Source of the DNA: Oscillospiraceae bacterium
Lineage (GTDB): Bacteria > Bacillota > Clostridia > Oscillospirales > Ruminococcaceae
Direction: 5' to 3'
NCBI GenBank assembly: GCA_017399625.1
Contig: JAFQBT010000096.1
Coordinates: forward strand, 1 to 60,464
DNA length: 60,464 nucleotides
Positions 2,010-36,711 of the stretch are shown in pieces. The number at the start of each line of letters is the position of its first letter. The stretch's first letter is position 1. A program made the position numbers and the translations under genes. The notes beneath the pieces were generated by a model that made no database searches, was not told where the DNA came from, and saw nothing but the letters and a program-made list of their open reading frames with translations.

Positions 2010-2037
2010 TGCAACAAAAAGGCGATTTTTTCGCACT
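2010..2037 (+). promoter_or_regulatory. Putative ECF-type promoter (site A) upstream of the sigma gene
   Basis: TGCAAC (2010-2015), 16 bases containing GGCGATTTTTT, then CGCACT (2032-2037) and AATATAAT. ECF promoters commonly have a -35 close to TGAAAC and a T-rich spacer. Three other sites in the island (19136, 19539, 35689) align with it over the -35, the [GC]G[AG]TTTTT spacer and the ACT box. Its position before the sigma gene suggests autoregulation. Confidence 0.6.
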
Positions 2038-2070
2038 AATATAATGATAGCCATGATTGGTGGTGTGGTT

Positions 2071-2613
2071 ATGAAAGTGAATGAAGATTTGGTTGTCAGG
2101 GCATCCAGAGGCGAAAAGGATGCTTTTTCCGACCTTTATTATTCCTGCTATAAGGATTTATATAAATTTGCGCTTTATACTCTTGGAGATTCGGAGGAAG
2201 CCGCGGACGTTGTTGCGGATACCTTTGTTGAACTCTGGCGCGGGATCGGAAAACTCCGGGATCCTTCGGCTTTTCCTTCCTGGGCATTCAGGATTCTCGG
2301 CGTCCGCTGCAAAAAGGAAATTGCGGATATGATAAAGCGCCGCGCGGTATATAATCTTGAGGAACTGACGGAAACTCCCGTTGAAGGTTCGGAAAATATT
2401 GAAGAAATTGTTTCCGAAAACGCAAGCCTTGCAAAGGCACTTTCGGAACTTGACGGAGAGGAAAGAATGGTTGTGGTTCTTTCGGTGCTCCATGGTTACA
2501 CAAATAAGGAGATTGCCGGAATGATCGGCAAGCCCCAGGGTACGGTAAGCTCGAAACTCCACCGTACATACGCAAAATTGAGAGAAAAGCTGGGAGGTGA
2601 GAACAATGGCTGA
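2071..2613 (+). CDS. RNA polymerase ECF-type sigma factor
   Basis: About 180 residues. Region 2 is visible as 'FSDLYYSCYKDLYKFAL' and 'DVVADTFVELWRGI' (residues 20-60), and region 4 as 'LDGEERMVVVLSVLHGYT' followed by the helix-turn-helix 'NKEIAGMIGKPQGTVSSKLH' (residues 130-170). There is no region 3, as expected of ECF sigmas. I prefer ATG 2071; an in-frame upstream start at 1990 would overlap the promoter and adds 27 atypical residues. The gene overlaps the next by 8 bases, the usual sigma/anti-sigma arrangement. It is the likely master regulator of the lipoprotein island. Confidence 0.88.
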   Translation: MKVNEDLVVRASRGEKDAFSDLYYSCYKDLYKFALYTLGDSEEAADVVADTFVELWRGIGKLRDPSAFPSWAFRILGVRCKKEIADMIKRRAVYNLEELTETPVEGSENIEEIVSENASLAKALSELDGEERMVVVLSVLHGYTNKEIAGMIGKPQGTVSSKLHRTYAKLREKLGGENNG

Positions 2614-3550
2614 GCACAGCAGCAGGGATTTTGAGCACGAATTCGAAGAATCGTTCCGAAGATTGGACGAAAGCATAAAAATTCCCGAAATTCCCGATGC
2701 TCAAAGCATTTTTGAGCGTGCGGAAAACGAAAAACCGAAGGTTCTGCCCTTCAAAAAATATTCAAGAATAATAGCGGCCGCGGCGGCGGTTGTTCTTATC
2801 TGTGTCGCTGTTCCGGTTTTCGGGAGCGCACTTTCCTCGGATATTGCGGCGGAAAGTGAACCGCAGGCAATGACCATTATGGACGGATTCTTTGATTCGA
2901 TGCGTTCCGACAGCAAATCGCAGGATAATGCAGCGGTGAAATCCGAAATACCGATGGAAGCCGAAATGCAGGAAGAACCGGAGGTCGCTCTGGAAATATT
3001 CCCGGAATCGGAGGAGGGAGAATCCGATTCGGATTTCCGCTATGCGCTGGAAGATTTCTTCTTCATGACTACTTCCGCGAACGGTCCGGTTGAGGGAGCA
3101 AGCGGAAACGGCGAACTTAAGGAACAATCCTCAAGCTCCTCTTCAAAAGAAGACTCGGCAGAAGCTTCCGACGGTGCGGAGCTTCTTGAAGAAAAGCTCA
3201 ACAAAAAGCGAAGCATTGAAATTTCCGTTGAGGAGGATTCCGTTTCGGTGGTCCTTTTCGATATTTCCGCCGGTGATGAAATTATTTCCGCTTTCTGGGT
3301 GGAAGGAAAATTTGTCGGTTCCGGAAAAGACGGCGAAAATTACGTTATTAACCTTACAAAAACCATTACGGAAGAGGAATTTAAAAGCGGATTTTTCGTT
3401 CCCATGGCCGGGGACGCAGAAAACGGAACCTATTCCATTCCGGAGGAAAACATTCTTGTTCCCGGAGAGGTGACAAAGGGCGTTATAATCCTTACGGTCG
3501 AAATCGACATCGGAACAGGTGAATATAAAATTTACGCAAGCCTTGTTTAA
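2606..3550 (+). CDS. Membrane-anchored putative anti-sigma factor
   Basis: 314 residues: an acidic cytoplasmic N-terminus (1-50, 'FEHEFEESFRRLDESI'), one transmembrane helix at about 55-75 ('IIAAAAAVVLICVAVPVF'), then an extracellular region with a glutamate/serine-rich linker ('EQSSSSSSKEDSAE') and a C-terminal beta-rich part. No zinc-binding HxxxCxxC anti-sigma motif is present. The anti-sigma role is inferred from topology and from the 8-base overlap with the sigma gene. The start is ATG 2606 with GGGAGGTG just before it, inside the sigma gene. The extracellular half could be the sensor part. Confidence 0.65.
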   Translation: MAEHSSRDFEHEFEESFRRLDESIKIPEIPDAQSIFERAENEKPKVLPFKKYSRIIAAAAAVVLICVAVPVFGSALSSDIAAESEPQAMTIMDGFFDSMRSDSKSQDNAAVKSEIPMEAEMQEEPEVALEIFPESEEGESDSDFRYALEDFFFMTTSANGPVEGASGNGELKEQSSSSSSKEDSAEASDGAELLEEKLNKKRSIEISVEEDSVSVVLFDISAGDEIISAFWVEGKFVGSGKDGENYVINLTKTITEEEFKSGFFVPMAGDAENGTYSIPEENILVPGEVTKGVIILTVEIDIGTGEYKIYASLV

Positions 3551-3561
3551 TCAAAAAAAGG

Positions 3562-3594
3562 ATGCCGCTGCCTTTTAATGGCGGCGGCATTTTC
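3562..3594 (+). terminator. Strong hairpin between the sigma/anti-sigma pair and the lipoprotein run
   Basis: ATGCCGCTGCC pairs over 11 bp with GGCGGCGGCAT (one G-U) around a TTTTAAT loop, followed by TTTCT. The weak T tract suggests partial termination or an attenuator that lowers lipoprotein expression relative to the sigma gene. Confidence 0.65.
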
Positions 3595-3618
3595 TGCATT
3601 TTAAGGGAGGATTTTATT

Positions 3619-4053
3619 ATGAAAAAGTTTTTTGCAATGTTTTTTGCACTTATTTTTGCTCTTTGCGGATGCGTTTCTGCCGAACCGGAAATCGACCCGA
3701 ATCTTTTCACCATCAAAGTCACCTTTGCGGATTCGGAGAACCTCACTTTTGAGCTGAATAACAATTCGAAGGATACAATCGAGTTCGGCGCGGATTATTA
3801 TATCGAATATAAGGACGGCGAAGAATGGGTACCCGTGGAGGAAAAGGGCGAATATTTCTTCACCATGATAGCCCATATCCTTGAACCGGGCGGCGTTTTT
3901 GAATCCGGCGGCAATATCGCGCAAAGATATGGCGCTCTTTCGAGCGGAACCTACCGGGTCTATAAAGATATCCGCATCCTCAATGAGGACGGAATGGTTT
4001 CCGGAAGCCAGCGCGCTTACGGCGAATTTGAAATTATTGCCATCGAGAGGTGA
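3619..4053 (+). CDS. Lipoprotein with a single Ig-like domain
   Basis: 144 residues. A type II signal peptide ('MKKFFAMFFALIFALCGC') puts the lipid-modified Cys at about residue 18. The mature part is one beta-sandwich domain with the pattern 'LTFELNNNSKDTIEFGADYY', 'W.PVEEKG', 'ILEPGGVFE', 'RYGALSSGTYRVYK'. I recall this pattern from a bacterial Ig-like family common in Firmicutes (Big_14-like); it should be confirmed by a profile search. The ATG at 3619 follows GGGAGG. It is the first of four consecutive genes with this domain, 8 bases before the next. Function unknown; probably a protein-binding surface domain. Confidence 0.8.
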   Translation: MKKFFAMFFALIFALCGCVSAEPEIDPNLFTIKVTFADSENLTFELNNNSKDTIEFGADYYIEYKDGEEWVPVEEKGEYFFTMIAHILEPGGVFESGGNIAQRYGALSSGTYRVYKDIRILNEDGMVSGSQRAYGEFEIIAIER

Positions 4054-4060
4054 AACGAAA

Positions 4061-5191
4061 ATGCGTAAAACGGTTACTTTATTATTGATAATGCTTCTTT
4101 TGTTCTGTTCCTGCGGCGAAGGGGAAACGGACAAAAAGATCCTTCCGCTTTCTCTTTCGGTAAAAAGCGCTTCCGCCGGCGAAGCGGTCGTTCTTGCGGA
4201 AAATTCCGGCGAAGAAAAAATAAGAGCCGACGGCGTATGTCTTTATAAAATTGAGGACGGAAAAGAAATCCCGGTGGGGGATTATGAGATTTTTTATAAT
4301 AACGAACTTTCCGCCCATCCCGGAGAAACGGCAGAATGGGTTATTGATATTGAAGAACTTTTCGGCAAAATTTCCGCCGGCGAATATAAAATGACATTCG
4401 GCGGTTTTGAAAAAGGCGAACAATATAACGGAAACTGGTATAAGGAAATCACTTTCGGAATTACCGAAGCGGAAAATTTTCCGGAAAGCCTTGAAGTGAA
4501 GGCGGAATCCCTTGAATGCCGCAACTGGGGATTCGGAATCCGCTTTACCAATAACAGCGACCGTGAGATAAAGCTTTCCGCTGCGGAGGAGGTCTTTTAT
4601 GAAACCGAAACCGGTTTTGAAAAGCTCGAATTTATCCGCGGAATCACACATGATGATACGATGATTCCGGTTGCCCCGGGGGAAAGCTTTGATTTTTATA
4701 AGAACACCGACGGAGTCTATGGCCTTTTCCCCATCGGAAAATACAGAATCGACCTCCGGGCTGTTTTCAAAAACGATGCGGGCGCGGAAAAGGAACAGAT
4801 TGTTTCCGGATTTTTTGAAATAACCGGTTTCGAAAAAGATAACATAACCCTGAGCTATAACATTGAAGATAAAGCGGAAATTTCCGGAACGGTTATCCGC
4901 GCGGAAATAAAAAACGGCTGGGGAGCGGAAGTCCGATTCGGTGACGATTATTTTATCCAGCGGCTTGAGGGCGAAGAATGGGTCACAGTTGAACCTCCGG
5001 AAACACCCGCTTTTGATACCGTTCTCTGGACCGTTCAGCCCGGAGAAACGTCGGAATGGACCGCGGATTTAAGCCTTATTTATGGCGAACTCCCGAAGGG
5101 AAGCTATCGCCTTTGCAAAAACTTCTTTATGGATGCGGAAAATTACAAAAACGGAAGGCACCTTGCTTTCTTCGGATTTGAAATAGTATAA
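4061..5191 (+). CDS. Lipoprotein with three tandem Ig-like domains
   Basis: 376 residues. The signal peptide ends at 'LLLFCSC'. Three diverged copies of the same beta-sandwich follow (about residues 25-145, 147-260, 262-376), each with a 'PGE(T/S).EW' or 'PGESFDF' turn and a closing 'G.YR' strand: 'GKISAGEYKM', 'GLFPIGKYRI', 'GELPKGSYRL'. The start is ATG 4061, 11 bases after GAGAGG; earlier in-frame starts would run through the previous gene. Intragenic domain duplication is evident. No enzymatic residues stand out. Confidence 0.78.
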   Translation: MRKTVTLLLIMLLLFCSCGEGETDKKILPLSLSVKSASAGEAVVLAENSGEEKIRADGVCLYKIEDGKEIPVGDYEIFYNNELSAHPGETAEWVIDIEELFGKISAGEYKMTFGGFEKGEQYNGNWYKEITFGITEAENFPESLEVKAESLECRNWGFGIRFTNNSDREIKLSAAEEVFYETETGFEKLEFIRGITHDDTMIPVAPGESFDFYKNTDGVYGLFPIGKYRIDLRAVFKNDAGAEKEQIVSGFFEITGFEKDNITLSYNIEDKAEISGTVIRAEIKNGWGAEVRFGDDYFIQRLEGEEWVTVEPPETPAFDTVLWTVQPGETSEWTADLSLIYGELPKGSYRLCKNFFMDAENYKNGRHLAFFGFEIV

Positions 5192-5212
5192 AAATTTTTT
5201 TGAGGTGGGTCA

Positions 5213-5659
5213 ATGAAAAGAATTATCGCGCTTGCTCTTGCGGCAATTTTTCTGCTTTCCGGCTGCGGCGCCGGGAACAGATCTCTCGGTGTTTCGGAGG
5301 AATTTATCACCGATACCGATATTCTCCGGCTTAAAATAACCGAGGTTTCCTCGGAAAAAATCGCGCTCGAAATCATAAACGAAAGCAAATGCGAAATCGG
5401 GTATGAGGAATTTTATTTCCTTGAATTTGATAAGGACGGCGAATGGCACCGCCTTTCGCCGAAGCATGAAGCAAGCTTCATCGAAGTTGCGTACATATTG
5501 GAAAAGGAAAGCAGCTGCACCTGGGGCGATAATTTCGGAAGGATTTACGGAAATCTTCCGGAAGGAAAATACCGCCTTATAAAATATTTCACCATTTTCG
5601 AAAACGAAAATGATCCGGGAGAAAAAGTTACCCTTGCGGCGCAGTTCGTGATCGTATAA
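5213..5659 (+). CDS. Lipoprotein with a single Ig-like domain
   Basis: 148 residues. Signal peptide 'MKRIIALALAAIFLLSGC' with a standard LSGC lipobox at 15-18. The mature part has 'IALEIINESKCEIGYEEFYF', 'CTWGDNFGRIYGNLPEGKYR' and a final 'AAQFVIV' strand, the same fold as its neighbours. The RBS is GAGGTGGG. It is the third gene of the Ig-like series and is closest to the fourth in its 'RIYGNLPEGKYR' segment. Confidence 0.8.
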   Translation: MKRIIALALAAIFLLSGCGAGNRSLGVSEEFITDTDILRLKITEVSSEKIALEIINESKCEIGYEEFYFLEFDKDGEWHRLSPKHEASFIEVAYILEKESSCTWGDNFGRIYGNLPEGKYRLIKYFTIFENENDPGEKVTLAAQFVIV

Positions 5660-5682: not shown

Positions 5683-6660
5683 ATGAAAAAAATTCTGATT
5701 TTTCTTGCCGCTTTGCTTCTGATGCTTTGCGGATGCTCGGAGGAAGAAATTCCTTTAAATGAAAAGAAACCGGAAACGGAGGCGATTCAGGTTCCGGACG
5801 AAAATCTTCCGGCAAAGATGGAAGTTTCGGCGGTTTCTGATTCGGAAATAACCGTTCTGATTGAAAATATTTCCGGGACGGAGGTTGTTTTCAGCGAGGA
5901 TTTCAGCCTTCAGTTCAGAGAAAACGGAAAATGGTATATTCTTCCGGCAATCCGGAAAAATTACGGATTCAACGAAATTGCGCTTCTTCTTGCTCCGGGT
6001 GAAAAAAGGGAATGGAGCACCGATTTCGCATGGATTTACGGAAGGCTTCCGGAAGGCGAATACAGAATCATAAAACATATTTCCACCGAAGAAGCCGGGG
6101 AATATAAATCCTTCCGCATCGGCGCGGAATTTTTGATAAAGCCGGAATCGGAAGAAAAAATTCCTTTCGAAAATACTTTTGATCCGGAAAAAAGCGTAAT
6201 TCCGGAAAAATCATTCGTTCTCCGTTCAAACAGCCCTTCCGGCGAAAGCGATTATCTTCTCTGGTATCATGCGGAAAACGAAAAGAAAACCAAGAGCGAC
6301 CGCCCGGTAATCGTTATTGAAAATATGGATGAGCTTATTTCCCTTCTTATGGATACGGAAGGAATCTATTTTTGGGGAGATATGGAAAATTCAGCAGACA
6401 AACAGCTTAAAAAATACGGCGGGGAATTTTTTGAAAATAACGTTCTCATTATAAGTCATATCCGGGCATCAAGCGGTTCTGTTCGCTACAGCGTTTCCGG
6501 AATCGATATTTCCGGTGGAAAATTTACCGTTCGGGTTTCCGCGGAAATTCCGGAAGTCGGAACAGCGGATATTGCCGATTGGTTCATAATAATCGAGCAG
6601 CCAAAGGATTCCGTTGAAGGAATCAGCGAATATGAAATGAGAATTTCAGTGAAAAAATAA
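5683..6660 (+). CDS. Lipoprotein: Ig-like domain plus a second C-terminal domain
   Basis: 325 residues with signal peptide 'MKKILIFLAALLLMLCGC'. Residues 45-160 form the Ig-like domain ('AWIYGRLPEGEYRIIKHI'). Residues 205-325 form another domain with 'YGGEFFENNVLIISHI', 'SGSVRYSVSGI' and 'VGTADIADWFIIIEQP'. The second resembles a domain I remember next to PrcB-type protease-complex subunits and in other Firmicutes lipoproteins; that link is tentative. The RBS is AAGGAGGTG. It completes the Ig-like series and precedes the LTACSKVPEEPE series. Confidence 0.75.
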   Translation: MKKILIFLAALLLMLCGCSEEEIPLNEKKPETEAIQVPDENLPAKMEVSAVSDSEITVLIENISGTEVVFSEDFSLQFRENGKWYILPAIRKNYGFNEIALLLAPGEKREWSTDFAWIYGRLPEGEYRIIKHISTEEAGEYKSFRIGAEFLIKPESEEKIPFENTFDPEKSVIPEKSFVLRSNSPSGESDYLLWYHAENEKKTKSDRPVIVIENMDELISLLMDTEGIYFWGDMENSADKQLKKYGGEFFENNVLIISHIRASSGSVRYSVSGIDISGGKFTVRVSAEIPEVGTADIADWFIIIEQPKDSVEGISEYEMRISVKK

Positions 6661-6677
6661 AAAAGGGGGAACTTTTG

Positions 6678-7625
6678 ATGAAGAAATTTCTTGCACTTTT
6701 TTTTGCGGTGCTCATGGTGCTCACTGCGTGCTCAAAAGTTCCGGAGGAACCGGAAATTCCGGAAGTTCCTTCCGAGCCGGAAAGCAAACAGGATTCCGCC
6801 TTGAGGAGACCATTGAAAATTGACCTTGATATTGTTAATTATCTGCATCTTGTTTCGCTCTATGGTGATGGAGTTTCCTTTTATCCCGGCGAAGGCGATA
6901 CGGTCCGTTACGGCAGAACCGGCGAAGAATCAAAGCTTCCTTTGACCACCGCGGAAAATGATTTATATTGTTTTGATTATAAAGACGGCAGCACCTTTAT
7001 TATCGTCGGAAAAGGAACGAAAAATGAACCGTTAAGGCTTTTGTTTTCCGATGACAACGGAAAAAACTGGGAAGTAAACGACATTGACGGAATCGATTGC
7101 AAAATATCGGAAATGTATATAAGCATCATCGGCGAAAACCGCGCTCTCTGGATTTTTAATACGGCGGAGGACGAAGGAAAATATATTTTTTATGATATCA
7201 GCGCAAACGGAGAAATCACAGAACGCAAGGACAGCAATATAATCGTTCCGGATAACCTTCTGGATGTATCCTTCGTTTCGGAAAAAACCGGCTATGCCAT
7301 CGGCGAAAGCAAGCCGGAACCCGCGATTTTCCGAACGGAAGACGGCGGAATAAACTGGGAAAAAATATCGGTCGATCTTCCGGAGGACAAAAACATTTCG
7401 TTCTGCCTTCCTTGGATTCCTCTGTTCTATGAAAACATCGGGTTTATGAGAATCCCCGCATATTATACCGATGATGCCGGAAATCAGAAAACCACAACAT
7501 ATTATTATATAAGTTCCGATGGCGGTCTTACGTGGGAATTGCTTTCCGAAAATTCCGATGAATTCAGCTATACCGAACAGGAAGCATGGAAAATTATGAG
7601 CATTTTTGAAAATAACAATATGTGA
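6678..7625 (+). CDS. Lipoprotein with Asp-box (BNR-like) repeats
   Basis: 315 residues. The signal peptide 'KKFLALFFAVLMVLTACSKV' is shared nearly word for word with the next two genes. The body has three Asp-box motifs (S/T-x-D-x-G-x-x-W): 'FSDDNGKNWE' (about 115-124), 'RTEDGGINWE' and 'SSDGGLTWE' (near 275), typical of sialidase-like beta-propellers. Only three boxes and about 290 residues may mean a small or degenerate propeller, and no catalytic sialidase residues are evident. ATG 6678 is preferred over the TTG one codon earlier. Confidence 0.78.
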   Translation: MKKFLALFFAVLMVLTACSKVPEEPEIPEVPSEPESKQDSALRRPLKIDLDIVNYLHLVSLYGDGVSFYPGEGDTVRYGRTGEESKLPLTTAENDLYCFDYKDGSTFIIVGKGTKNEPLRLLFSDDNGKNWEVNDIDGIDCKISEMYISIIGENRALWIFNTAEDEGKYIFYDISANGEITERKDSNIIVPDNLLDVSFVSEKTGYAIGESKPEPAIFRTEDGGINWEKISVDLPEDKNISFCLPWIPLFYENIGFMRIPAYYTDDAGNQKTTTYYYISSDGGLTWELLSENSDEFSYTEQEAWKIMSIFENNNM

Positions 7626-7673: not shown

Positions 7674-10013
7674 ATGAAAAAGAAAATTGCCCTTTTGCTG
7701 GCGGTGCTCATGGTGCTCACCGCGTGCTCAAAGGTTCCGGAGGAACCGGAAATTCCGGAATCCTCTTCCGAACCGAGCACCGAAACAAGCTCCGTTCCGG
7801 AGGAACCGGCAGAAATTCCGGAAAATATAACCGAACTGCTCCGGGAGGATTTCCCGAAAATCGACGGTTCAACTTCGCTGATACCGCTGGAAGCTGGAAT
7901 CCGTGCGGAAATTTTCGGAAAAACAATCGAGGAAGCGACCCTTGATGTTTCCCATTCGAGCACATGGCTTTCGTTCCATAACCTTATAACCGGCCACGCG
8001 GATATGATTTTTTCCTGCCCGCTTTCGGAAGAACAATGGAAGATGGCGGATGAAAGGGGAATCCTTCTTGAAGCGATTCCCGTTGCATACGAAGGTTTTG
8101 TTTTTGTAGTAAACGCGAACAACCCGGTGGATGAACTCACCCAGGATGAACTTCGCAAAATCTATTCCGGCGAAATCACGAACTGGAAGGAAGTGGGCGG
8201 AAACGACGCGGAAATAATCGCCTATCAGCGCAACAACGATTCCGGAAGCCAGAACTATATGATTGAATTCATGGGCGAAGTTCCGCTTATGGATGCTCCG
8301 GAGGAAGGCAGACCGAGCTCCATGGTCGGTCTTATGGATGCGGTTGCCTATAACGACAACGCGGAAAACGCCATCGGCTATTCCGTCTATGCCTATGCGG
8401 CGGATATGTACGGCGGCGGAAGCGAAATAAAATTCATAAAAGTTGACGGCGCGGAAGTCAGCAAGAACAATATGGCAAAGGGAACCTATCCGCTCCTCGG
8501 TTATAACTATGCGGTTTTTGATTCCGAAGAACCGTCGGATTCTCCCGTCCGGATGCTTGTAGAATGGATGACTTCCGACGAAGGCCAGCTTGCGGTTGCA
8601 AAAGCCGGATACGTAACCCTTCGGGACGTGGGCTTTGAATATACCGAAAAGCATATCGAAAAATATGAAGGCACCGGAGCGGGAATCGCTTTTGATTCCG
8701 CGGATATCCCTTCCTATGAATATATCCTCGGCGAAGGCAGGGAGGAATTTATTCCCCTTGAGATAAAGGCGCATCCGGACGGCACGGAAACCTATTATCT
8801 CGATGCCCTTGCTGATAAAAAACTCGAAGCGGAGGTAAATGATTTTATCCTCCAGAGCATAAAGAAAAGCGAAGAGCTCCTTTTGAAGATGAAGGAGGAT
8901 CTTTCCGCGGCAAGCGGAAGTTCCCATATTTTTGCGGAAATGGAACAGTTTTTGCATTATTTCGGAGGTTCCGAAGATGCGAGCTGCTATAAAGAAGGCC
9001 AGCCCGCTTCGGTCTATGTTTCGGCGAAAAATGGATACCTTTCCGTCGCGGTGGCAATGGAATACAGCTATTATACAGCCGAAATGTCGGAAGGCCTTAA
9101 GCTTTCATATAACACCGAAACCGCGGTGTGGAATATGAAAACCGGAAAACGCCTTTCGATGGAAGAACTTTTCCCGGCGGGAACGGACATTGATAAAATC
9201 CTCAACGAATTTATGGAGCTTGCGGTTTATCAGCCGGCAAACGACCTTGGAACCTATTATCCGATGAAGGCGGATTTTATGGGAATGCCGAAGGAAAACT
9301 GGAGCTTGACCGCCGATTATATCTATTTTGATTTCGGAAATCCGTATTTTGAAAACGGCGCGGTTTTAAAAACCGATATTTTCCTTGATGATTATATGGT
9401 AACCTCCGTTCCGGACGATATGGAAGGATATTTTACTGAAATCGAGCCGGTTAAATTTTTCCGTGAAGGCGAAAGGAATATCAGATTCAAAAGGGTTGAG
9501 GAAACGGAAGCGACAACCGAAAGATACGGAACTCCTTTCGGCTATGCGGTTTTGCGTAACCCGGAAGAAAACAGAATTTATGAAAAAATAAATTCCGCAA
9601 TAGAAGAATATGTGGAAAAACATTTCCGCCTTGAAACAGTCGGAAAGGAACTGGACAAAAAAGCGCAGGACGGTTATTATAAAGTATGGGATTTCCCGGA
9701 TGCAAAGCTTTTCGGAAACAGGTATTTTATAGTAATGCTCCCGGCTGCATCGGTTTATATTGATGAAAACAACCGTGAATATTACAGCAAAACCCCGACC
9801 CTTATTTTTGATATGGAAACCGGAAAACGAATCGAATTCACCGATATGCTCACGAAAACCGGAAAGGAAAGGGCAAAAGCCGAAGGATTCGATAAATTCG
9901 ATATAATCGAAAGTTTCCGCCTTTCCGGAAAGAAAATCAACGTCCGGTTTATAAAAAGAGGAACGGGCGAAAGAGTCAGTATAAACCTCAATGAGGATGA
10001 TATAAAATGGTGA
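7674..10013 (+). CDS. Lipoprotein with a PstS-like ligand-binding domain and an RsiV-like C-terminus
   Basis: 779 residues. The lipobox LTAC is followed by a Glu/Pro/Ser-rich spacer (20-50). Residues 55-330 match the PstS/COG0226 solute-binding fold: 'KIDGSTSLIPLEAG' (DGSTS at 64-68), 'VAYEGFVFVVNANNPVDELT', 'IYSGEITNWKEVGG' and 'RNNDSGSQNYM' (DSGSQ from 189), which in phosphate-binding relatives form the oxyanion pocket. The C-terminal 400 residues carry 'GKRLSMEELFPAGTDIDKIL' and 'YIYFDFGNPYF', reminiscent of the DUF3298 domain of RsiV and PdaC. No ABC permease or ATPase is nearby, so a sensing role is more likely than transport. The next gene is a tandem paralogue. Confidence 0.8.
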   Translation: MKKKIALLLAVLMVLTACSKVPEEPEIPESSSEPSTETSSVPEEPAEIPENITELLREDFPKIDGSTSLIPLEAGIRAEIFGKTIEEATLDVSHSSTWLSFHNLITGHADMIFSCPLSEEQWKMADERGILLEAIPVAYEGFVFVVNANNPVDELTQDELRKIYSGEITNWKEVGGNDAEIIAYQRNNDSGSQNYMIEFMGEVPLMDAPEEGRPSSMVGLMDAVAYNDNAENAIGYSVYAYAADMYGGGSEIKFIKVDGAEVSKNNMAKGTYPLLGYNYAVFDSEEPSDSPVRMLVEWMTSDEGQLAVAKAGYVTLRDVGFEYTEKHIEKYEGTGAGIAFDSADIPSYEYILGEGREEFIPLEIKAHPDGTETYYLDALADKKLEAEVNDFILQSIKKSEELLLKMKEDLSAASGSSHIFAEMEQFLHYFGGSEDASCYKEGQPASVYVSAKNGYLSVAVAMEYSYYTAEMSEGLKLSYNTETAVWNMKTGKRLSMEELFPAGTDIDKILNEFMELAVYQPANDLGTYYPMKADFMGMPKENWSLTADYIYFDFGNPYFENGAVLKTDIFLDDYMVTSVPDDMEGYFTEIEPVKFFREGERNIRFKRVEETEATTERYGTPFGYAVLRNPEENRIYEKINSAIEEYVEKHFRLETVGKELDKKAQDGYYKVWDFPDAKLFGNRYFIVMLPAASVYIDENNREYYSKTPTLIFDMETGKRIEFTDMLTKTGKERAKAEGFDKFDIIESFRLSGKKINVRFIKRGTGERVSINLNEDDIKW

Positions 10014-19135: not shown

Positions 19136-19163
19136 TGAAACGAAACCCGGGATTTTTGCTACT
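19136..19163 (+). promoter_or_regulatory. Putative ECF-type promoter (site B)
   Basis: TGAAAC (19136-19141), 16 bases ending GGGATTTTT, then GCTACT (19158-19163) and TAATATATGGGAGGTG. It aligns with sites A, C and D and drives the second small membrane protein. A -35 of TGAAAC is the classical ECF element. Confidence 0.6.
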
Positions 19164-25467: not shown

Positions 25468-27003
25468 ATGAAAAAATTAATCTGCCTCGTGCTCATTTTT
25501 ACTCTGATGCTCACCGCGTGCTCAAAATGGGAAATCGAGATTGTTGACCCGACGAAACCCGTCGAAGGCGAAAGTGAACTTATCGTTCCGGAAAATGAAA
25601 AAGAAGAAAAACCGATTCTTTCCGAAAACGACAAAATTCAGGAGAATAACGGTATTCAGGAAAATGACGAACCATCCGTTTATGAATATGCAATAATGAA
25701 AATATACGAAAGCGAAGAAATTTCCCAGAAAGATTTCGTGGAGCTTTCTGAAAGCGAAAAAGAAGAACTGATATCTGCCCTGAACGCTGAAAGCTGGACG
25801 GATGTTCCGGAAGACTGGGAAGCAGATGAAGCCCTTTCCGGACCGGTTAATCTTATACAGACGATTGCAAGAGATAATATGTATATCAGTTCCGACGGAG
25901 AGAAAACTCTCATAACCATAGAGTGGGGAAGAGATGAGAAAAAACAGAAGTTCTACCATGCTCCGAAGGAAGTGGCACAGAATATGGAAAACCTCCGCAA
26001 AGAGGTGCAGGCGCAGGTGCTTTCGGAAGCAGAAGAACCTGAAATTGAGGAATTCAGCAGACTTCTGGTTTACGGCAGCGATGATTATAATATCACGCAT
26101 GCTTTTTCGAATGAAGAGCTTTCGGAATGGCTTTCTGTTTTAAATCCGGAGGAATGGAAAGAAAATTCCGATGAAAAAGAAGGCGGAAGCCTTAATAAAG
26201 CTATAATGCTTTCAAGAAGCGGCAGAGGTGCTTTATACATCGGAACCGATCAGTACGGTGACGAAATTGCGCTTTTCAAGTGGGGAAGAATGGGCAATCT
26301 TACAAAAAGCTATATCATGCCGGAGGGAACTTTTTCCGCCGCAAAGGCTTTTGAAAAAAGAATGATCCGGGAAAACCCCAATATTTTCACCTATCCGGAA
26401 TGCCTTTATGATATGTCCGCAAATGCTTTCCTTAACAGGGAAAACGATGATTATATCCTCTATCTTGCGGATTTTCTCAACTGCATGAGATGGAATGCGC
26501 TGGTTGCGGAAACCGGAAAGGAATACAGCGGATTTTCTTCTCCTTCCGAACTTGACGGAAGAGTTATGTTCAACCAGTTCATGTTCGTTTTCGATAAGGG
26601 CTTTACCGAAAACGGAAGCCTTACCCAGGACGCATGGTACAGCTATGCCGACGAAAGATATCACATTCCCATGGCGGATATCCACACCGTCCTCGGAAAA
26701 TATTTTGCGGATTATTCATTTGAATTTGAAGACCACATCAACTATGAGGAAGAATACGATTCCGTGGTAATTCTGCAGGGATACCCGGTAAGCAGCTTCC
26801 GCGGAGAAACCGAGGTTGTTTCCGTAACCGATAATGGCGACGGAACGCTCACCGCAGTTCTTGAATCAAGGCTTTATCACCTTGATGAAAGCGATAACAT
26901 GGTGCTTTCCGAAAATCCGGAGGAAAGAAGCACAATCGTTTTCCGTCCGGGAGATTTCAGATGCCTTATCCTGAGCCATAAAATCGAAAGTATTGGTGAT
27001 TAA
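25468..27003 (+). CDS. Lipoprotein of the 'LTACSKWEIEIVDP' series (tandem repeat domain)
   Basis: 511 residues. The signal peptide 'MKKLICLVLIFTLMLTACSK' and the first mature residues 'WEIEIVDP' recur with few changes in the next five genes. Two tandem copies of a 110-residue domain follow (about 70-180 and 190-300), each with 'L.ALNAESW' or 'LSVLNPEEW' and 'WGR' segments ('ITIEWGRDEKKQKFYHAP', 'ALFKWGRMGNLTKSYIMP'). The C-terminal 200 residues are a separate alpha/beta domain. No known enzyme motif is present. The RBS is GGAGG. It is separated by 2 bases from the next gene. Confidence 0.75.
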   Translation: MKKLICLVLIFTLMLTACSKWEIEIVDPTKPVEGESELIVPENEKEEKPILSENDKIQENNGIQENDEPSVYEYAIMKIYESEEISQKDFVELSESEKEELISALNAESWTDVPEDWEADEALSGPVNLIQTIARDNMYISSDGEKTLITIEWGRDEKKQKFYHAPKEVAQNMENLRKEVQAQVLSEAEEPEIEEFSRLLVYGSDDYNITHAFSNEELSEWLSVLNPEEWKENSDEKEGGSLNKAIMLSRSGRGALYIGTDQYGDEIALFKWGRMGNLTKSYIMPEGTFSAAKAFEKRMIRENPNIFTYPECLYDMSANAFLNRENDDYILYLADFLNCMRWNALVAETGKEYSGFSSPSELDGRVMFNQFMFVFDKGFTENGSLTQDAWYSYADERYHIPMADIHTVLGKYFADYSFEFEDHINYEEEYDSVVILQGYPVSSFRGETEVVSVTDNGDGTLTAVLESRLYHLDESDNMVLSENPEERSTIVFRPGDFRCLILSHKIESIGD

Positions 27004-30716: not shown

Positions 30717-32474
30717 ATGAAAAAACTGATCTGCCTCGTGCTCATTTTTGTGCTCATGCTTACCGGGTGCTCAAAGTGGGAAATTGAGATTGTTGACCCG
30801 GAGGAATCTTCGGAAACTTCTTCCGAGGAAAGAAAACCGCTTGAGGTCCTTAACGAAAACCAGAAAAAAGCAATAAAAATTTTGCTGGAAAACGAACTTA
30901 AATATGAGGTATGGGATATACTCCAGCAAAAATATATTTTTGGCGAATTCAGAAATATTCAGTTCTATGACGAAAACTGCTGGAGCGCAGTAATGGTGCT
31001 CGATAAACTCGGAAAAACCCTTGAAATCCCGGTTGAAGGTATTTCCTATTACAGTGAAGACGGCTATGTCTCGAACATTTACGGCAAAATCCAGATTCTT
31101 GATGATGAAACCGCTGTTTTCTGCGGAAAGGAAAAGGCGCTTTTCTTCAGCACAGAAACCCTTGAACCCCTTGACATAAATCTTGAAATCCCAACTTTTG
31201 AAGGGGAGGAAACCTGGGTCAACGGCGCTGGATTCAACAAAATGACCGGTAAATACGTTCTTTTTGCAACCGGAATAAAAAGACCGGAAACCGAAGGAGA
31301 AAACGCCGTAATGTTCATCTATGATGAAAACGGAAAAATCGAATCCAAAACGGAAACTGCCGTTCACGGATCATCGTATTCTATCGAGGAATACCTCCCT
31401 TATTACTTCCCGGAAACGCAGTTTTTTGAATACAAGGGCGAAACTTTCCTCTATACCGGATATAACGCGGTGGGGCTTGAAAGCGGAACTAATGTTGAAC
31501 TTTATGACGCGACAAAGCTTGAAAACGGAGATTTTGACCTTAAAATCGTCGGCTGCCATTTTTCCGGAACGGAATACAAAAGAGAATATATGGCTTTCCT
31601 TTCCAAAAACGGCGGAAACGAAAAAGTTATGGTGTTCGACGGAACAGATTTCAGCGACCCCATGTATTCCGGAAACAGCGAACCGCCGACCTTTGAGGTA
31701 AACGGCGACATTCTGACCTATCGCCACGAACATTTCGCAATGGAAATGACCCTTGATTTTGCGAAAGAAAGCTGCAGAATCGAGTATAAACCGGATGATT
31801 CAATTCTTGAAACCGCGGAAAAATACGCATCCAGCAGGGACGGAAAATATGCCGTCTATTCCTTCGGTCTCAACGGAGCGGGAGATGTACTGAATTACCA
31901 TCTTTCAATCCGCAACAGCGAAACAAAAAAACACGTTTATCTCGGAACAAGCGGCGGAATGTACGGCGGCTATAACGGAGTGGGATTCCTTAAAAACAAC
32001 GATGTTTATATTTTTAATCTTACAAAGCTCAACATCCTCGACCCGGAAACCGGAGAAATAAAATTTGATCTCGGAAAAAACTTTCCGCTTTTCTATGACG
32101 ACGAAACCGAAAAAGGACGCTATATGCTCACTTTCCGCCGTGACCCGGAAGATTTCAGCTTTATCGTTATTTATTATGAATTTGAAGGCGGCAGAAAATG
32201 GACGGAAGTTGAAAGCGAAGAATTCGGATGGCACGAGGAGGCGGACTGCAATTACAAAATTGCCTTTCTTGATGCTGAAGGAAACCTTCTCGAAGGTTAC
32301 GATACCGGTGTTCCCGTCTGGGGCGACCAGTTCGGAATACACAGGGTTGATATGCGCTATTCTCCGGAAAAGCTGACCGTTATAGTCCGCAACAGCGGAA
32401 AAGGCCAAAGCGGTTTTGACGGCGTTTTTGATATGGAAACAAAGGAATTTACCGTTTTCGCTCCGAAATTTTAA
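30717..32474 (+). CDS. Lipoprotein of the same series (propeller-like, copy 2)
   Basis: 585 residues; the lipobox is LTGC instead of LTAC. It is homologous to 27006 and 32501 over the whole mature part: 'TSGGMYGGYNGVGFLKNND', 'LTFRRDPEDFSFIVIYYE', 'AFLDAEGNLLEGYDTGVPVW' and 'GVFDMETKEFTV'. Glycine-rich loops at equivalent positions in the three copies suggest a shared binding face. It lies 6 bases after the previous stop, with GAGAGTGACGG as a modest RBS. Confidence 0.77.
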   Translation: MKKLICLVLIFVLMLTGCSKWEIEIVDPEESSETSSEERKPLEVLNENQKKAIKILLENELKYEVWDILQQKYIFGEFRNIQFYDENCWSAVMVLDKLGKTLEIPVEGISYYSEDGYVSNIYGKIQILDDETAVFCGKEKALFFSTETLEPLDINLEIPTFEGEETWVNGAGFNKMTGKYVLFATGIKRPETEGENAVMFIYDENGKIESKTETAVHGSSYSIEEYLPYYFPETQFFEYKGETFLYTGYNAVGLESGTNVELYDATKLENGDFDLKIVGCHFSGTEYKREYMAFLSKNGGNEKVMVFDGTDFSDPMYSGNSEPPTFEVNGDILTYRHEHFAMEMTLDFAKESCRIEYKPDDSILETAEKYASSRDGKYAVYSFGLNGAGDVLNYHLSIRNSETKKHVYLGTSGGMYGGYNGVGFLKNNDVYIFNLTKLNILDPETGEIKFDLGKNFPLFYDDETEKGRYMLTFRRDPEDFSFIVIYYEFEGGRKWTEVESEEFGWHEEADCNYKIAFLDAEGNLLEGYDTGVPVWGDQFGIHRVDMRYSPEKLTVIVRNSGKGQSGFDGVFDMETKEFTVFAPKF

Positions 32475-32500: not shown

Positions 32501-34264
32501 ATGAAAAAACTTATCTGCCTCGTGCTCATTTTTGTGCTCATGCTCACCGCGTGCTCAAAATGGGAAATCGAGATAAAAGAACCGGATAATTCCGAAATCC
32601 CGGAAAATACGGAGAATGTTTCTGAAAATATTCTTGAGGAAACCGGCTTTACAAAAGAGGAATACGCAAAGGCAACCGGGCTTATTGTTGAAAACCTTGC
32701 CTTTGTGACCGGCGGAAAGCTGGACGGATATTACGAACTGGGCTTCGTCGAAAGCAGCATAAGCGTTACCGAAGCAAACATTGCCATTGAAAACGAAAAT
32801 ATCTTTTCTTTCGATCTTTTCCTTTCCAACGGAGGCGCGGAAATAAAGATTCCCATGAAGGGGTTCTATCATCTTGCTAAACGCGATTCGGAAGTTCCGA
32901 ACGATGCCGCCGTTTCAACCTGCGGTTTCTGTGCCCTTGGTGAAGATAAAATCGGAATCTACGGATATAATTTTGTCGGAATCATCGATGAAATCACCCT
33001 TGAACTGACAGAGCTTTCTCCTGCTCCCGGCGAAATTTCCGGAAACGTCTGGTATAACGGAATAATGCTGACCGAATCCGGATATGCGGTTCTCGTAACC
33101 CCCATGGAAAAGGAAAACTATATTGCGGATTCCGCAAACGAAACAAAACTCCTTTTTCTTGATGAAGAAGGAAAAACCACCGAAAGCCATGTCCTTAAAG
33201 ATCCTATTGTAAATCTTAACCGCTATTTCACAAGTCCGGAATTTACCCGGGGGATGTATATCATCAATACGAATGAAGGAAGAATTCTTGAATGCGGAAA
33301 CAACACCGAAAATATCGATAACGGAATCTCCTATTATTGTGACACAATAATCGAAATTTCCTCCGGAGAGAAAGAGGCTGTAATTTACCGCTATTATGAC
33401 AACGAGGACTATACTTTCATAAGAAACGTTGCGGTGCTTTATGATAAAAAAGCCGCAAAAAGCTTTGTCGATATGGGAACGGATTATATCGATACCGCGG
33501 TTTTTGAACCGAAGGACGGAATCGAGGAACTCCGTGATGATAACACCCTGCTTTTCACCTGTGTTAACAACGGTCTTGTTATCGAAATCGATTTCAATTC
33601 CGGAGAATACGATATCCGCTATGAGGTTGAAGAAAAACATCTCCGGGAACTGATTGACGAAAGCTCCGACGGAAAATATTCCCTCTGGGATTTTGCGGCA
33701 TCTTCCGGCGGCGATGCTATCAGCTATCTTATCGCGTTCAGAAACAACGAAACCGGCGAGATAAACTATGTTGGTCCCGGCGGCGGAATGTACGGCGGAG
33801 GAACGGAAGCAGGATTCCTTAAAAACGGGGATTTTTATTATACCGATTACAGCGAGCTGAAAGTTTATTCCCCGGAACCCTTCGAGGTTATTTTTGATGC
33901 GGAAGAAAATTTCCCCTTCGGAGACAAAAAGGCCGAAAACGGAAAATCAAGATATCTCCTCACTTTCCGCCGCGACCCGGAAAATTTCGGATTCATCGTT
34001 GTCTATTTTGAGCGGGACGATATGGAATACAGAAATGACGAAACAAAAACCGGAACCTATATGATAGGCTTCCTCGATGCGGAGGGAAATCTCATCGAAA
34101 GCTATGATACCGGCTGCGGAGTCTGGATAAGCCCCTTCGGAATCCAGGAAGTTTCCATGCGCTATTCAAAGGAAGCACTCACACTTGTTATCCACGGAAC
34201 AAAAGGAAACGACGGCTTTACCGGAATATTCGATATGGAAACGAAGGAGTTCGCCGTTTCCTGA
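32501..34264 (+). CDS. Lipoprotein of the same series (propeller-like, copy 3)
   Basis: 587 residues with signal peptide 'MKKLICLVLIFVLMLTACSK'. It is homologous to 27006 and 30717: 'GGGMYGGGTEAGFLKNGD', 'LTFRRDPENFGFIVVYFE', 'GFLDAEGNLIESYDTGCGVW', 'GIFDMETKEFAVS'. It is the most diverged of the three in its N-terminal half. The RBS block CGGAAGTGACATAATG matches the one before 34283. Confidence 0.77.
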   Translation: MKKLICLVLIFVLMLTACSKWEIEIKEPDNSEIPENTENVSENILEETGFTKEEYAKATGLIVENLAFVTGGKLDGYYELGFVESSISVTEANIAIENENIFSFDLFLSNGGAEIKIPMKGFYHLAKRDSEVPNDAAVSTCGFCALGEDKIGIYGYNFVGIIDEITLELTELSPAPGEISGNVWYNGIMLTESGYAVLVTPMEKENYIADSANETKLLFLDEEGKTTESHVLKDPIVNLNRYFTSPEFTRGMYIINTNEGRILECGNNTENIDNGISYYCDTIIEISSGEKEAVIYRYYDNEDYTFIRNVAVLYDKKAAKSFVDMGTDYIDTAVFEPKDGIEELRDDNTLLFTCVNNGLVIEIDFNSGEYDIRYEVEEKHLRELIDESSDGKYSLWDFAASSGGDAISYLIAFRNNETGEINYVGPGGGMYGGGTEAGFLKNGDFYYTDYSELKVYSPEPFEVIFDAEENFPFGDKKAENGKSRYLLTFRRDPENFGFIVVYFERDDMEYRNDETKTGTYMIGFLDAEGNLIESYDTGCGVWISPFGIQEVSMRYSKEALTLVIHGTKGNDGFTGIFDMETKEFAVS

Positions 34265-34282: not shown

Positions 34283-35428
34283 ATGAAAAAACTTATCTGC
34301 CTCGTGCTCATTTTTGTGCTTATGCTCACGGCGTGCTCAAAATGGGAAGTTGAAATTGTTGATCCCACGAAACCGACCGAAACCGAAGGGGAAGAAAGCT
34401 CTTCCGCTTCGGAAACGGAAAGCGAACCGGAAGTTTCCTCCGCACCGGAAACCGAAGAACAGCCGGAAAAAATCCCGGAAAGAAATCCGGCTTTTGTTTT
34501 TGAAAAACCGGAGATTCTCTATCCGGAAAACGCTCCGGAGGAACTTTTTGAATCCGCCGCCTTCGCGGAAGCCATGAACCGACCTTCGGTCATTCTTTAT
34601 GATTATGAACCCATAAGCGATTGCCTTGCGGCGGTGAATTTTATCGAGGCGTTCGAAAAAGGCGAATATGCGGAACTCTATATCTTCCGCTTTACGAACA
34701 TTGATTACTATGATTCAAAAGACGCTTCATGCACCTGCCTTTTTACCGAAAACGGAGTTATAACCGAAACCGCGGAGGATTGGAAGGATTGGGAAACATG
34801 CAGTAATTACGGATATATAAAACCCATAATAAACGTTTATATCAACGATTACGGATTTTTTACCGTTGAATCCGAAATTTATGAACCGGTTTATTATAAG
34901 GTGATAAGCGATTTTGCCCTTTATGAAAACGAAGCGGAACACCGCGTCATGAAGGAAAAATACATCGACCCGATTTTTACGATTACTGTAAGCCCGAAGG
35001 AATTTGCCTCTGTTTCGGATTTTTCCGCGGCGGAACTTGTCTTTCTTTTCGAGGATATTTATAACCACGAAAACGGAAACGACCCCTGGCAGAAATTCGG
35101 CAATAACTGGCCCCTTTCCGAAATTCTTTCGCTCCTGAACCGATATTTCGAAGGCGTGACGAAGGAAATGATAATTTCGGACAGCCGCTTTGCCTATGAC
35201 CCGGAAACGGATTCGATTTTCTATGAAGGCGGAAGGGGAGGCGTTCCCCCGGACAGAAGGGTTTTTGATTCTGAACGAAGCGGCGATATCCTCACCGTTT
35301 ATTATTGGCTTTATCACGAGGAAAGCGGAACAATTTATGATGACAAATACTACGCCCTTTCAATAAGGCTCCTTCCGGACGGAAGTTTTCGCTATCTTTC
35401 CCAGGAAATTATTGAAAACGGCGGCTGA
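34283..35428 (+). CDS. Lipoprotein of the same series (shorter cargo)
   Basis: 381 residues: the shared signal peptide and 'WEVEIVDPTKPTE', an acidic spacer ('EGEESSSASETESEPEVSS', 35-60), then a domain at 75-240 and a C-terminal alpha/beta domain with 'LSEILSLLNRYFEGVTKEMI' and 'LTVYYWLYHEESGTIYDDKY'. The C-terminal part resembles that of 25468 in its predicted strand order. It is the last of the six-member series and is followed 20 bases later by Xre-2. Confidence 0.73.
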   Translation: MKKLICLVLIFVLMLTACSKWEVEIVDPTKPTETEGEESSSASETESEPEVSSAPETEEQPEKIPERNPAFVFEKPEILYPENAPEELFESAAFAEAMNRPSVILYDYEPISDCLAAVNFIEAFEKGEYAELYIFRFTNIDYYDSKDASCTCLFTENGVITETAEDWKDWETCSNYGYIKPIINVYINDYGFFTVESEIYEPVYYKVISDFALYENEAEHRVMKEKYIDPIFTITVSPKEFASVSDFSAAELVFLFEDIYNHENGNDPWQKFGNNWPLSEILSLLNRYFEGVTKEMIISDSRFAYDPETDSIFYEGGRGGVPPDRRVFDSERSGDILTVYYWLYHEESGTIYDDKYYALSIRLLPDGSFRYLSQEIIENGG

Positions 35429-35448: not shown

Positions 35449-35640
35449 ATGACCATAATGCTTAAAAATCTGCGGAAGGGAAGAAGAATGACCCAGCAGA
35501 ATCTTGCAAAGGCACTCCATATCTCCCAGACCTCCGTAAGCAAATATGAAACCGGCGGCGCCTTTCCGGATCTTGAAACCTTGGTAAAAATGGCGGATTT
35601 TTTCGGAGTTTCGCTGGATGAATTTATAGTGAGAGAATAA
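35449..35640 (+). CDS. Minimal Xre-family HTH regulator (Xre-2), paralogue of Xre-1
   Basis: 63 residues, only a Cro/C1 helix-turn-helix. 'HISQTSVSKYE' and 'VKMADFFGVSLDEF' are shared exactly with Xre-1 at 19588. The RBS is GAGGTGACC, and it is probably co-transcribed with the lipoprotein run. An ECF-like promoter follows it (site D), while Xre-1 is preceded by one (site C), so each mini-Xre is tied to the same promoter family. Confidence 0.88.
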   Translation: MTIMLKNLRKGRRMTQQNLAKALHISQTSVSKYETGGAFPDLETLVKMADFFGVSLDEFIVRE

Positions 35641-35688
35641 TGACAAAAAAGCGGTCGGGAAATTTTTTACAGTTTTCCGGCCGTTTGC

Positions 35689-35716
35689 TGCAGCAAAAAG
35701 CGGTTTTTGAGGCACT
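35689..35716 (+). promoter_or_regulatory. Putative ECF-type promoter (site D)
   Basis: TGCAGC (35689-35694), 16 bases with AGCGGTTTTTG, then GGCACT (35711-35716) and ATTATTATAG. It fits sites A-C less perfectly, differing at one -35 position and one spacer position. Confidence 0.5.
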
Positions 35717-35742
35717 ATTATTATAGAAGGAGGTGCGTTCCG

Positions 35743-36339
35743 ATGAAAAAACTTCTTTGCGTTCTTCTGATTTTCTGTCTTGCGGGATGTTCCCCGGCGG
35801 AAAATCTTCCGGAAACGGATATCACTATTTCCGGAATTGAAACCGAAAAAAGTGAGGCGGCGGAATCTTATACCGAAGAAAATGTTTTCCGTTCGCCGGA
35901 AGAACTTGCGGAATATTTCAATAAAAATCCGGAGCTTTTGGAGTATGTCATGGAAGAAAACGGCGGAACCGGAATCTGCGTTCCCCGGAACCTTCCGGAA
36001 AAATATGAACTCAGCATGATAAGGCTCAGCGGAAGCTATGTGACATATTTTTACGAAAAAGCGGAAAATCCGGCGGAAATATTCCTCCTTGAATGGGCGT
36101 TCAGAGCACCCGACGCGGAAAAATTCCTGCAGAATTCCCTGAATTTTAATTCGGAGGAAATTGCAGTTAGACCCGGAAGCTATGCTTCGCCGCAATTTTC
36201 GGCGGAAACAGGGGAACAAATCGGATGGAAAATTTTCTGGACGGATGAAGGCTTCTGCTTCACCGCAATCGTTTCCGGCGAAATTTTCGAAAGCTTTAAA
36301 AACGGAACGGATTTTGTTGAAAAACGGGTTTTCGGATAA
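35743..36339 (+). CDS. Small lipoprotein of unknown function
   Basis: 198 residues from ATG 35743, preceded by GAAGGAGGTG; the in-frame ATG at 35707 would overlap the promoter region. Signal peptide 'MKKLLCVLLIFCLAGC' with lipobox LAGC. Residues 45-198 form one compact alpha/beta domain ('SPEELAEYFNKNPELLEYVM', 'EIFLLEWAFRAPDAEKFLQN'). I do not recognise the family. Site D just upstream makes it a candidate member of the sigma regulon. Confidence 0.75.
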   Translation: MKKLLCVLLIFCLAGCSPAENLPETDITISGIETEKSEAAESYTEENVFRSPEELAEYFNKNPELLEYVMEENGGTGICVPRNLPEKYELSMIRLSGSYVTYFYEKAENPAEIFLLEWAFRAPDAEKFLQNSLNFNSEEIAVRPGSYASPQFSAETGEQIGWKIFWTDEGFCFTAIVSGEIFESFKNGTDFVEKRVFG

Positions 36340-36351
36340 ACGGAGGAAAAA

Positions 36352-36711
36352 ATGAAAAAATTTATTGCCGCATTGCTGATTATTTTGCTGATTTGCGCCG
36401 GTTGTTCAAAGGCTGAAAAACTTCCGGATGAGGGCGGAAACAATCCGCCGCCGACAGTAAACGTAAACGGAAAGCAGTATATTGTCAGCGGGAACACTCC
36501 TTCAGAACCGCCGGAAAATGCGGAAATCTCCGGAACTTTCGATGAACTTTCGGAATGGCCGGACGAACACGGCGAAACAAATATGGATTATCTGGTCGGA
36601 AAACCTTATATTTTTGCGGGAGGCGAACTTTATGTTTTCGTGGAAAACTGGCCCTTCCAAAACGAAAAACTGCAGTATGTTTATACCGGCGGTTGGATAA
36701 AATGCAGCTGA
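36352..36711 (+). CDS. Small lipoprotein of unknown function
   Basis: 119 residues with signal peptide 'MKKFIAALLIILLICAGC'. The mature part has a Gly/Pro-rich linker and then a short beta-rich domain ('YIVSGNTPSEPPENAEISG', 'MDYLVGKPYIFAGGELYVFV'). It is separated by 12 bases from the previous gene and is the last of the 18 lipoproteins of the island. Confidence 0.72.
   Translation: MKKFIAALLIILLICAGCSKAEKLPDEGGNNPPPTVNVNGKQYIVSGNTPSEPPENAEISGTFDELSEWPDEHGETNMDYLVGKPYIFAGGELYVFVENWPFQNEKLQYVYTGGWIKCS

Follow-up and report, generated by a model that had tools for sequence, protein, structure and literature searches.

The window analysed here is contig C90 (60,464 bases) of a metagenome-assembled genome (MAG) of 2.1 Mb, which consists of 146 contigs and is 87% complete. 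Between positions 2010 and 36711, gene calling yields 28 genes, every one on the + strand: 18 genes for predicted lipoproteins (L01 to L18), an extracytoplasmic function (ECF) sigma/anti-sigma pair (SIG, ASIG), two pairs of a BlaI-type repressor and an M56 metalloprotease (BlaI1/M56a, BlaI2/M56b), two mini-Xre genes (XRE1, XRE2) and two genes for small membrane proteins (TM1, TM2; Table 1). We consider it fairly probable that these genes make up two adjacent loci, an ECF-sigma half and a BlaI/M56 half, which jointly would provide a switchable and fast-changing lipoprotein coat. This reading is built on gene content, conserved motifs, homogenised leader DNA and the separation of the two halves in related genomes, all of which are observed in the sequence. 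Regulation rather than place looks like the tie between these genes.

Lipoprotein content and synteny of the two halves

All 18 predicted lipoproteins combine a charged N-terminus, a hydrophobic stretch and a lipobox-type cysteine, signal peptides being called by regular expression and sequence features. Eleven (L03, L05-L07, L11-L17) fit the strict lipobox [LVI][ASTVI][GAS]C, and seven carry relaxed forms (L01 LCGC, L02 FCSC, L04 LCGC, L08 FCSC, L09 LCAC, L10 FVSC, L18 CAGC). The regular expression caught 17 of them and missed L18. With the same expression, lipoproteins account for 12 of 146 genes longer than 100 amino acids (aa) in eleven comparison loci of relatives, against 18 of 28 here; the enrichment at 2010-36711 is more than chance.

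The first-pass annotation of this DNA had named the same 18 lipoproteins and the same regulators, and both counts stand. Pfam recovers the ECF sigma factor at 2044, two BlaI repressors (Penicillinase_R), two M56 domains and one HTH_3 domain at 19588. The second mini-Xre gene, an open reading frame (ORF) of 63 aa at 35449, is a paralog of XRE1 according to BLAST against Xre genes of relatives. ASIG is a putative anti-sigma factor by a weak DUF4179 match and by its conserved pairing, as it follows the sigma gene in 14/14 genomes that have the latter. The start of BlaI2 was moved from 20897 to 20945, probably the true start, where a ribosome-binding site is found; most relatives have 130-131 aa. 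A single strand and tight operons had also been pointed out. All 28 genes do lie on +, but so do the flanking called genes, except for one 50-aa call at 55142, and the single strand is therefore not a mark of an island. Moreover, terminator-like hairpins seen by eye 3' of L07, XRE1, L09, and L18 divide the genes into several transcription units.

That the locus is not an uptake operon in gene content was likewise confirmed. Phosphate uptake, with the lipoproteins as binding proteins, is suggested by the PstS-like domain of L06 and L07, in which we noticed by eye the stretches DGSTS and R-x-x-SGS, presumably the PstS-type motif. This explanation is very improbable, since Pfam reveals no permease or ATPase among the 28 genes and the PstS-like domain is absent from 16 of the 18 lipoproteins. 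In L06 and L07 (7674-12375) the domain is fused to a long unknown C-terminal half, and no transporter lies nearby.

We distinguish half A (2010-12375), composed of SIG, ASIG, L01-L04 (Big_14), L05, and the PstS-like L06 and L07, from half B (12439-36711), composed of BlaI1-M56a-L08-XRE1 and BlaI2-M56b-L10...XRE2-L17. Ten relatives of the same genus possess both halves, and in every one of them M56b and ASIG are located on separate contigs. In seven of these (G002, G003, G005, G007, G010, G013, and G014) half A reaches parE without half B, in G005 with two large secreted-protein genes in between. The half-A contigs of G001, G004, and G006 end in large secreted-protein genes. Half-A orthologs lie behind NUDIX/GNAT genes and, wherever the contig is long enough, ahead of parE; the surroundings of half B vary from species to species. 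Both halves are typical of the genus: ASIG occurs in 14/15 genus genomes and in 0/46 others (E 1e-6), the L12/L14/L15 family in 14/15 and 0/26, respectively.

A single 35-kb island is thus rejected by synteny. The earlier description of a regulated, evolving lipoprotein system on one island holds for regulation and change, as number and kind of lipoproteins shift between species, but not for the one island. Scattering of the genes in related genomes, which would have spoken against the earlier description, was found in part, the two halves being apart from each other. Halves A and B each appear to be an old, genus-level lipoprotein locus, inherited and switched separately from the other, and are now adjacent in this genome.

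The adjacency itself might be an assembly error. The MAG is fragmented and incomplete, the layout is absent in 10/10 relatives, and the upstream part of parE resembles that of G001, G004, G006, and G008 rather than that of the genomes where half A adjoins parE. We nevertheless find an error rather doubtful, because both junctions lie in unique sequence without a common 10-mer, and because half A is placed between NUDIX/GNAT and parE in relatives too, so that insertion of half B alone suffices. As for mobile-element signs at the junctions, no common 10-mer was seen, and no search was aimed at transposases.

Candidate promoters and operators

By eye, we recognised the motif TGMARC-RAAA-N-TTT-N-ACT 5' of SIG, TM2, XRE1, and L17; its -35-like part TGMAAC resembles Bacillus ECF promoters. 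With at most one mismatch, the motif is found at the sigma gene in 13/14 genomes (ten exact, three with one mismatch) in otherwise diverged sequence, and it precedes 5/10 XRE1-like genes. Nine matches lie outside the window in this genome, six of them directly 5' of a lipoprotein gene, one 5' of an ECF sigma gene (contig C47) and two 5' of neither. A sequence model made from 11 sites recovers these 11 and then one weaker partial match 5' of a lipoprotein gene (L050); among the 30 loci inspected, none of its other weaker matches is followed by a lipoprotein gene. In 20 lipoprotein loci of relatives, chosen by leader matches, 10 operons carry the motif, over a background of 3/134 non-lipoprotein genes and 1/12 lipoproteins.

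TGMAAC-N18/19-ACT could also be the site of another sigma factor or the target of an activator shared by lipoprotein genes, a real possibility that we regard as less probable than control by SIG. The genome reveals approximately 22-25 sigma region-4 matches, so another sigma factor could own the motif, which moreover precedes another ECF gene on C47; a loose dyad, CAAAAA...TTTTTG, forms part of the motif. ECF factors typically read their own gene, and it is for this reason that the conservation of the motif at this very sigma gene argues for SIG.

The two BlaI repressors appear to differ in their reach. Three GACTA-N6-TAGTC sites cover the promoter of BlaI1 in 8/8 genomes with a BlaI1 ortholog, and a search at one mismatch finds this operator in the present genome at BlaI1 only. 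The BlaI2 pattern TTNTACNNNYGTANAA has seven sites in 2.1 Mb. Three are in the window, at 19838 (5' of L09) and at 20844 and 20889 (5' of BlaI2), whereas two precede a two-lipoprotein operon on contig C34, one precedes another two-lipoprotein operon on C6, and the seventh is near a further BlaI/M56 pair on C101. The promoters on C34 and C6 resemble the BlaI2 promoter and lead into the same leader and N-terminal tag (see below), and both operons were also picked out independently by a leader profile. The two tagged operons of relatives that are unlinked (G002:C24, G006:C32) each carry a pair of BlaI2 operators, located at -56/-29 and -54/-29. With a looser regular expression, sites precede BlaI2 itself in 8/10 genomes.

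Five regulators dedicated to this locus had been proposed. We reject purely local action for the set as a whole: it holds for the BlaI1 operator alone, whereas the BlaI2 operator and the sigma-type motif also precede lipoprotein genes on other contigs. Further BlaI/M56 pairs of this genome are located at L109 (G000:C102) and L108 (G000:C101); their ectodomain sizes are very different, and six M56 matches exist in all.

Leaders, N-terminal tag and sensor domains

Lipoproteins linked to BlaI2/M56b have the consensus tag C-x-W-x-V-E-I-V-D-P right after the lipid cysteine. We searched 166 lipoproteins of retrieved loci with C-x(0-4)-W-x-[VIF]-x-[ILV]-x-[DNE]-P and counted as linked those in an operon with a BlaI2 operator or M56b. 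Among the 44 tagged proteins 33 are linked and 11 are not, 13 are linked without the tag, and 109 have neither (Fisher P 4e-15, only indicative because the loci were chosen by leader or motif matches and related genes are taken as independent). As for the 11 unlinked ones, M56b lies ahead of ten (seven in G003 and G014, three in G005), and the remaining one occupies the second position in an operon that has an operator.

The DNA of the leaders is more alike than that of the proteins behind them. L11-L16 leaders use the same codon at 248/300 degenerate same-residue positions; the bodies of L12, L14, and L15 do so at 305/555, where codon usage predicts 0.45. In paralog pairs, the body is near saturation (pS 0.69-0.72) and the leader is at 0.27-0.39. 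Of 26 MKKxIC-type leaders, 17 find their closest counterpart within their own genome (shuffles give 2.6 on average and 10 at most) and 6 within their own cargo family. Across 52 lipoproteins of 14 loci, leader likeness is 71% within a genome for different cargo (76 pairs), 67% for the same cargo in other genomes (270 pairs), and 65% otherwise (965 pairs). Leader DNA is thus homogenised within species while cargo differs.

Leaders might be alike only because all lipoproteins of the M56b operon descend from a single tandemly duplicated gene, with cargo that diverged rapidly or was exchanged, and with neither ongoing homogenisation nor a functional tag. L12/L14/L15 and L06/L07 are indeed true paralogs, and L16 resembles L11 over a C-terminal stretch in profile comparison (85%). 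Yet we consider duplication alone unlikely, given that body and leader differ in saturation within the same paralog pairs, that the nearest leader follows the genome rather than the cargo family, and that L10-type genes combine a different signal peptide with the same tag. Beside the tagged set, relatives of L14 and L16 (L111 8978-11749; L133 1069-2787) share a quite different linker, VPPEVLPESE..., so leader swapping would extend beyond that set. Four loci with L14-family relatives belong to 'Oscillospiraceae bacterium' MAGs; for three of these, goat or sheep gut is given as the label.

Domains are shared between the sensor ectodomains and free lipoproteins. The first part of the M56a ectodomain matches the Big_14 lipoproteins (hhalign 93-96% for L01, L03, and L04, 82% for L02), its C-terminal part is matched in three species by L08 orthologs over their N-terminal part, and a free lipoprotein of G011 corresponds to the M56b ectodomain (30% over 427 aa, E 4e-37). 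Homology between the M56b ectodomain and L12/L14/L15 was unsupported (hhalign at most 13%). Sequence searches of the PDB with A3 and A4 gave weak matches only (E 0.18 and 0.21).

At the end of its last membrane helix, M56b has the lipobox [LM]VAC in 11/11 orthologs and 3/3 relatives. It is found in 0/8 M56a orthologs, and VGC occurs in 3/4 proteins of a third M56 type. The sensor domain of M56b may therefore itself become a lipoprotein. Across the order, 28 of 30 M56 loci could be resolved; the regular expression flagged nine, and about seven have a cysteine at the outer end by eye, one being this genome's own C101. The embedded lipobox is thus not unique to M56b. Such M56 proteins of other families are L145, L151, L155, L159, L162, and L167. 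As a long shot, M56b might gauge lipoprotein maturation, its sensor being a lipoprotein still fused to the protease. As long as lipidation and signal peptidase II keep pace, the sensor would be cut off and the switch would rest; when they lag, uncut M56b would be active, BlaI2 would fall, and the tagged lipoproteins would change. By the W-x-V-E-I-V-D-P tag, the M56b system or a partner would then recognise its own lipoproteins.

The 5' flank of the 28 genes contains tRNA-Glu and acetyltransferase-like, NUDIX-like, and methyltransferase-like genes (these three named by eye), the 3' flank parE (gyrB-like), priA, def, and further genes. At 51837-54995 a large secreted protein with DUF4886, Flg_new, and dockerin is encoded, relatives of which sit between half A and parE in G001, G004, G005, and G006. 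TM1 and TM2 (18788-19541), situated between L08 and XRE1, are alike by eye and have no Pfam match. The C-terminal domain of L08 (17435-18775), KPVIYLYP..., is without a Pfam match as well and recurs in two lipoproteins on contig C123 (L107 3790-5327).

Table 1. Features of the two proposed lipoprotein loci (positions in the window; TM, transmembrane)
Feature	Position	Strand	Evidence or remark
ECF-type promoter motif TGCAAC-N19-ACT	2010..2037	+	directly 5' of sigma gene
SIG, ECF sigma factor, 189 aa	2044..2613	+	Pfam Sigma70_r2/r4_2; TIGR02937 E 3e-29
ASIG, putative anti-sigma, one TM segment	2606..3550	+	sub-threshold DUF4179 (E 0.01)
L01, Big_14 Ig-like	3619..4053	+	Pfam
L02, Big_14 x3	4061..5191	+	Pfam
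L03, Big_14	5213..5659	+	Pfam
L04, Big_14	5683..6660	+	Pfam
L05, Asp-box/Ycf48-like	6678..7625	+	Pfam
L06, PstS-like domain + unknown C-terminal half	7674..10013	+	Pfam; 4q8r E 9e-25
L07, L06 paralog (47%)	10027..12375	+	Pfam; sequence comparison
Three BlaI1 operators GACTA-N6-TAGTC over TTGACA/TATATT promoter	12439-12454, 12462-12477, 12495-12510	+	motif
BlaI1 repressor	12528..12896	+	Penicillinase_R
M56a membrane metalloprotease (HECTH), ectodomain ~1,165 aa: Big_14-like part, DUF6273, others	12932..17416	+	Pfam; hhalign
L08	17435..18775	+	lipobox
TM1, small membrane protein	18788..19129	+	no Pfam
Sigma-type motif 5' of TM2	19136..19163	+	motif
TM2, small membrane protein	19185..19541	+	no Pfam
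Sigma-type motif 5' of XRE1	19539..19565	+	motif
Mini-Xre XRE1	19588..19785	+	HTH_3
BlaI2-type operator 5' of L09	19838..19853	+	motif
L09	19905..20774	+	lipobox
BlaI2 operators over TTGACA/TACAAT promoter	20844-20859, 20889-20904, imperfect 20915-20930	+	motif
BlaI2 repressor	20945..21364	+	Penicillinase_R
M56b membrane metalloprotease (HELTH), 567-aa ectodomain; lipobox LVAC residues 359-362, Cys codon 22475-22477	21392..24190	+	Pfam
L10, tag CGWNIEIREP	24288..25451	+	tag
L11, tag CSKWEIEIVDP	25468..27003	+	tag
L12, degenerate tag CSNRNVEIVDP, paralog of L14 and L15	27006..28784	+	sequence comparison
L13, tagged	28800..30710	+	tag
L14, tagged	30717..32474	+	tag
L15, tagged	32501..34264	+	tag
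L16, tagged	34283..35428	+	tag
Mini-Xre XRE2, 63 aa	35449..35640	+	ORF, BLAST
Sigma-type motif 5' of L17	35689..35716	+	motif
L17	35743..36339	+	strict lipobox
L18, relaxed lipobox CAGC	36352..36711	+	lipobox

Proposed working and comparison with known systems

From the motifs and gene order we infer the following regulatory arrows, signals, and coat role. In half A, an envelope signal would cause the anti-sigma factor to release the sigma factor, which would transcribe its own operon, with the Ig-like and PstS-like lipoproteins, and act in trans on XRE1 and additional lipoprotein genes. In half B, a signal on the M56 ectodomain would activate the protease and inactivate BlaI, whereupon the operon would open. 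BlaI1 would act locally; BlaI2 would control L10-L16 and L09 and, in trans, the two lipoprotein operons on C34 and C6. The BlaI2/M56b lipoproteins have leader and tag in common, and the leader DNA would be homogenised by recombination within species while cargo domains come and go. The outcome would be a coat of lipoproteins that bind or sense things outside, and a surface-sensing or decorating role is plausible.

Several findings weigh against this reading. The sigma-type motif was not found at the sigma gene of G011 nor 5' of XRE2 genes (0/3), and other sigma factors are numerous. In this genome the motif has 12 matches when one mismatch is allowed, where its reversed control has 5, and the BlaI2 pattern has 13 strand-hits, where its reversed control has 7; the argument therefore rests on positions, not numbers. 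The motif counts from the lipoprotein loci of relatives and the tag test are biased, as these loci were chosen via leader or motif matches. The looser expression finds no BlaI2 operator at BlaI2 in G003 and G004. The seven unlinked tagged lipoproteins in G003 and G014 sit after an Xre gene with a sigma motif, the 13 linked but untagged ones include L09, L12 (degenerate tag), L17, and L18, and leader likeness has a weak cargo component too (P 0.03).

Leader and promoter class appear to predict the controlling switch of a lipoprotein, so that for gut bacteria without cultures N-terminal sequences might be used to infer regulons. Further lipoprotein operons at other places in the genome appear to be under the same switch as the tagged set. 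The loci also represent a Gram-positive case of common leaders before unrelated lipoproteins and point to a use of M56 switches other than for beta-lactams, and the lipobox embedded in an M56 sensor is a directly testable feature.

Literature searches on BlaI/M56, BlaR1, and leader-family topics, which had partial coverage, found nothing on this locus. Among known systems, the staphylococcal beta-lactamase switch (BlaI/BlaR1-MecI/MecR1) is similar in its BlaI-type repressor beside an M56 protease with a large C-terminal ectodomain, present here in two pairs, in operators over the promoter and in the zinc motif HExxH of both M56 domains. The blaR1_generic model matches M56b residues 14-361, and matches to solved BlaR1 chains fall in the protease part. 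However, the NCBIfam scores are 137 and 74 against a 400-bit cut-off, with the match covering the protease half only; neither M56a nor M56b has a transpeptidase/penicillin-binding domain in Pfam, and the predicted targets are lipoproteins, partly in trans. M56b may also differ by its embedded lipobox, the alignment to BlaR1 ending before the last helix.

SIG, with regions 2 and 4 only and lacking regions 1/3 (Pfam r2, r4_2; 189 aa), belongs to the ECF class and falls under no named subfamily by cut-off. The sigma and putative anti-sigma pair with a motif at its own gene (13/14 genomes) resembles envelope-stress regulons of the SigM/SigW/SigV type, whereas the predicted targets found here are mostly lipoproteins and an Xre gene. 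Unlike an ABC uptake operon, the genes scanned with Pfam include neither permease nor ATPase. The Borrelia Erp/Elp lipoproteins have a shared leader peptide and an upstream homology box, comparable to the near-identical leader DNA before unrelated mature proteins here. The present genes, in contrast, form chromosomal operons in a Firmicute, with an extra tag after the cysteine, an apparent tie to a BlaI/M56 switch, and no prophage or plasmid seen; the likeness is one of principle, and we claim no homology. BlaI/M56 switches, an ECF sigma factor, and Elp-like leader families are thus known parts in a new combination.

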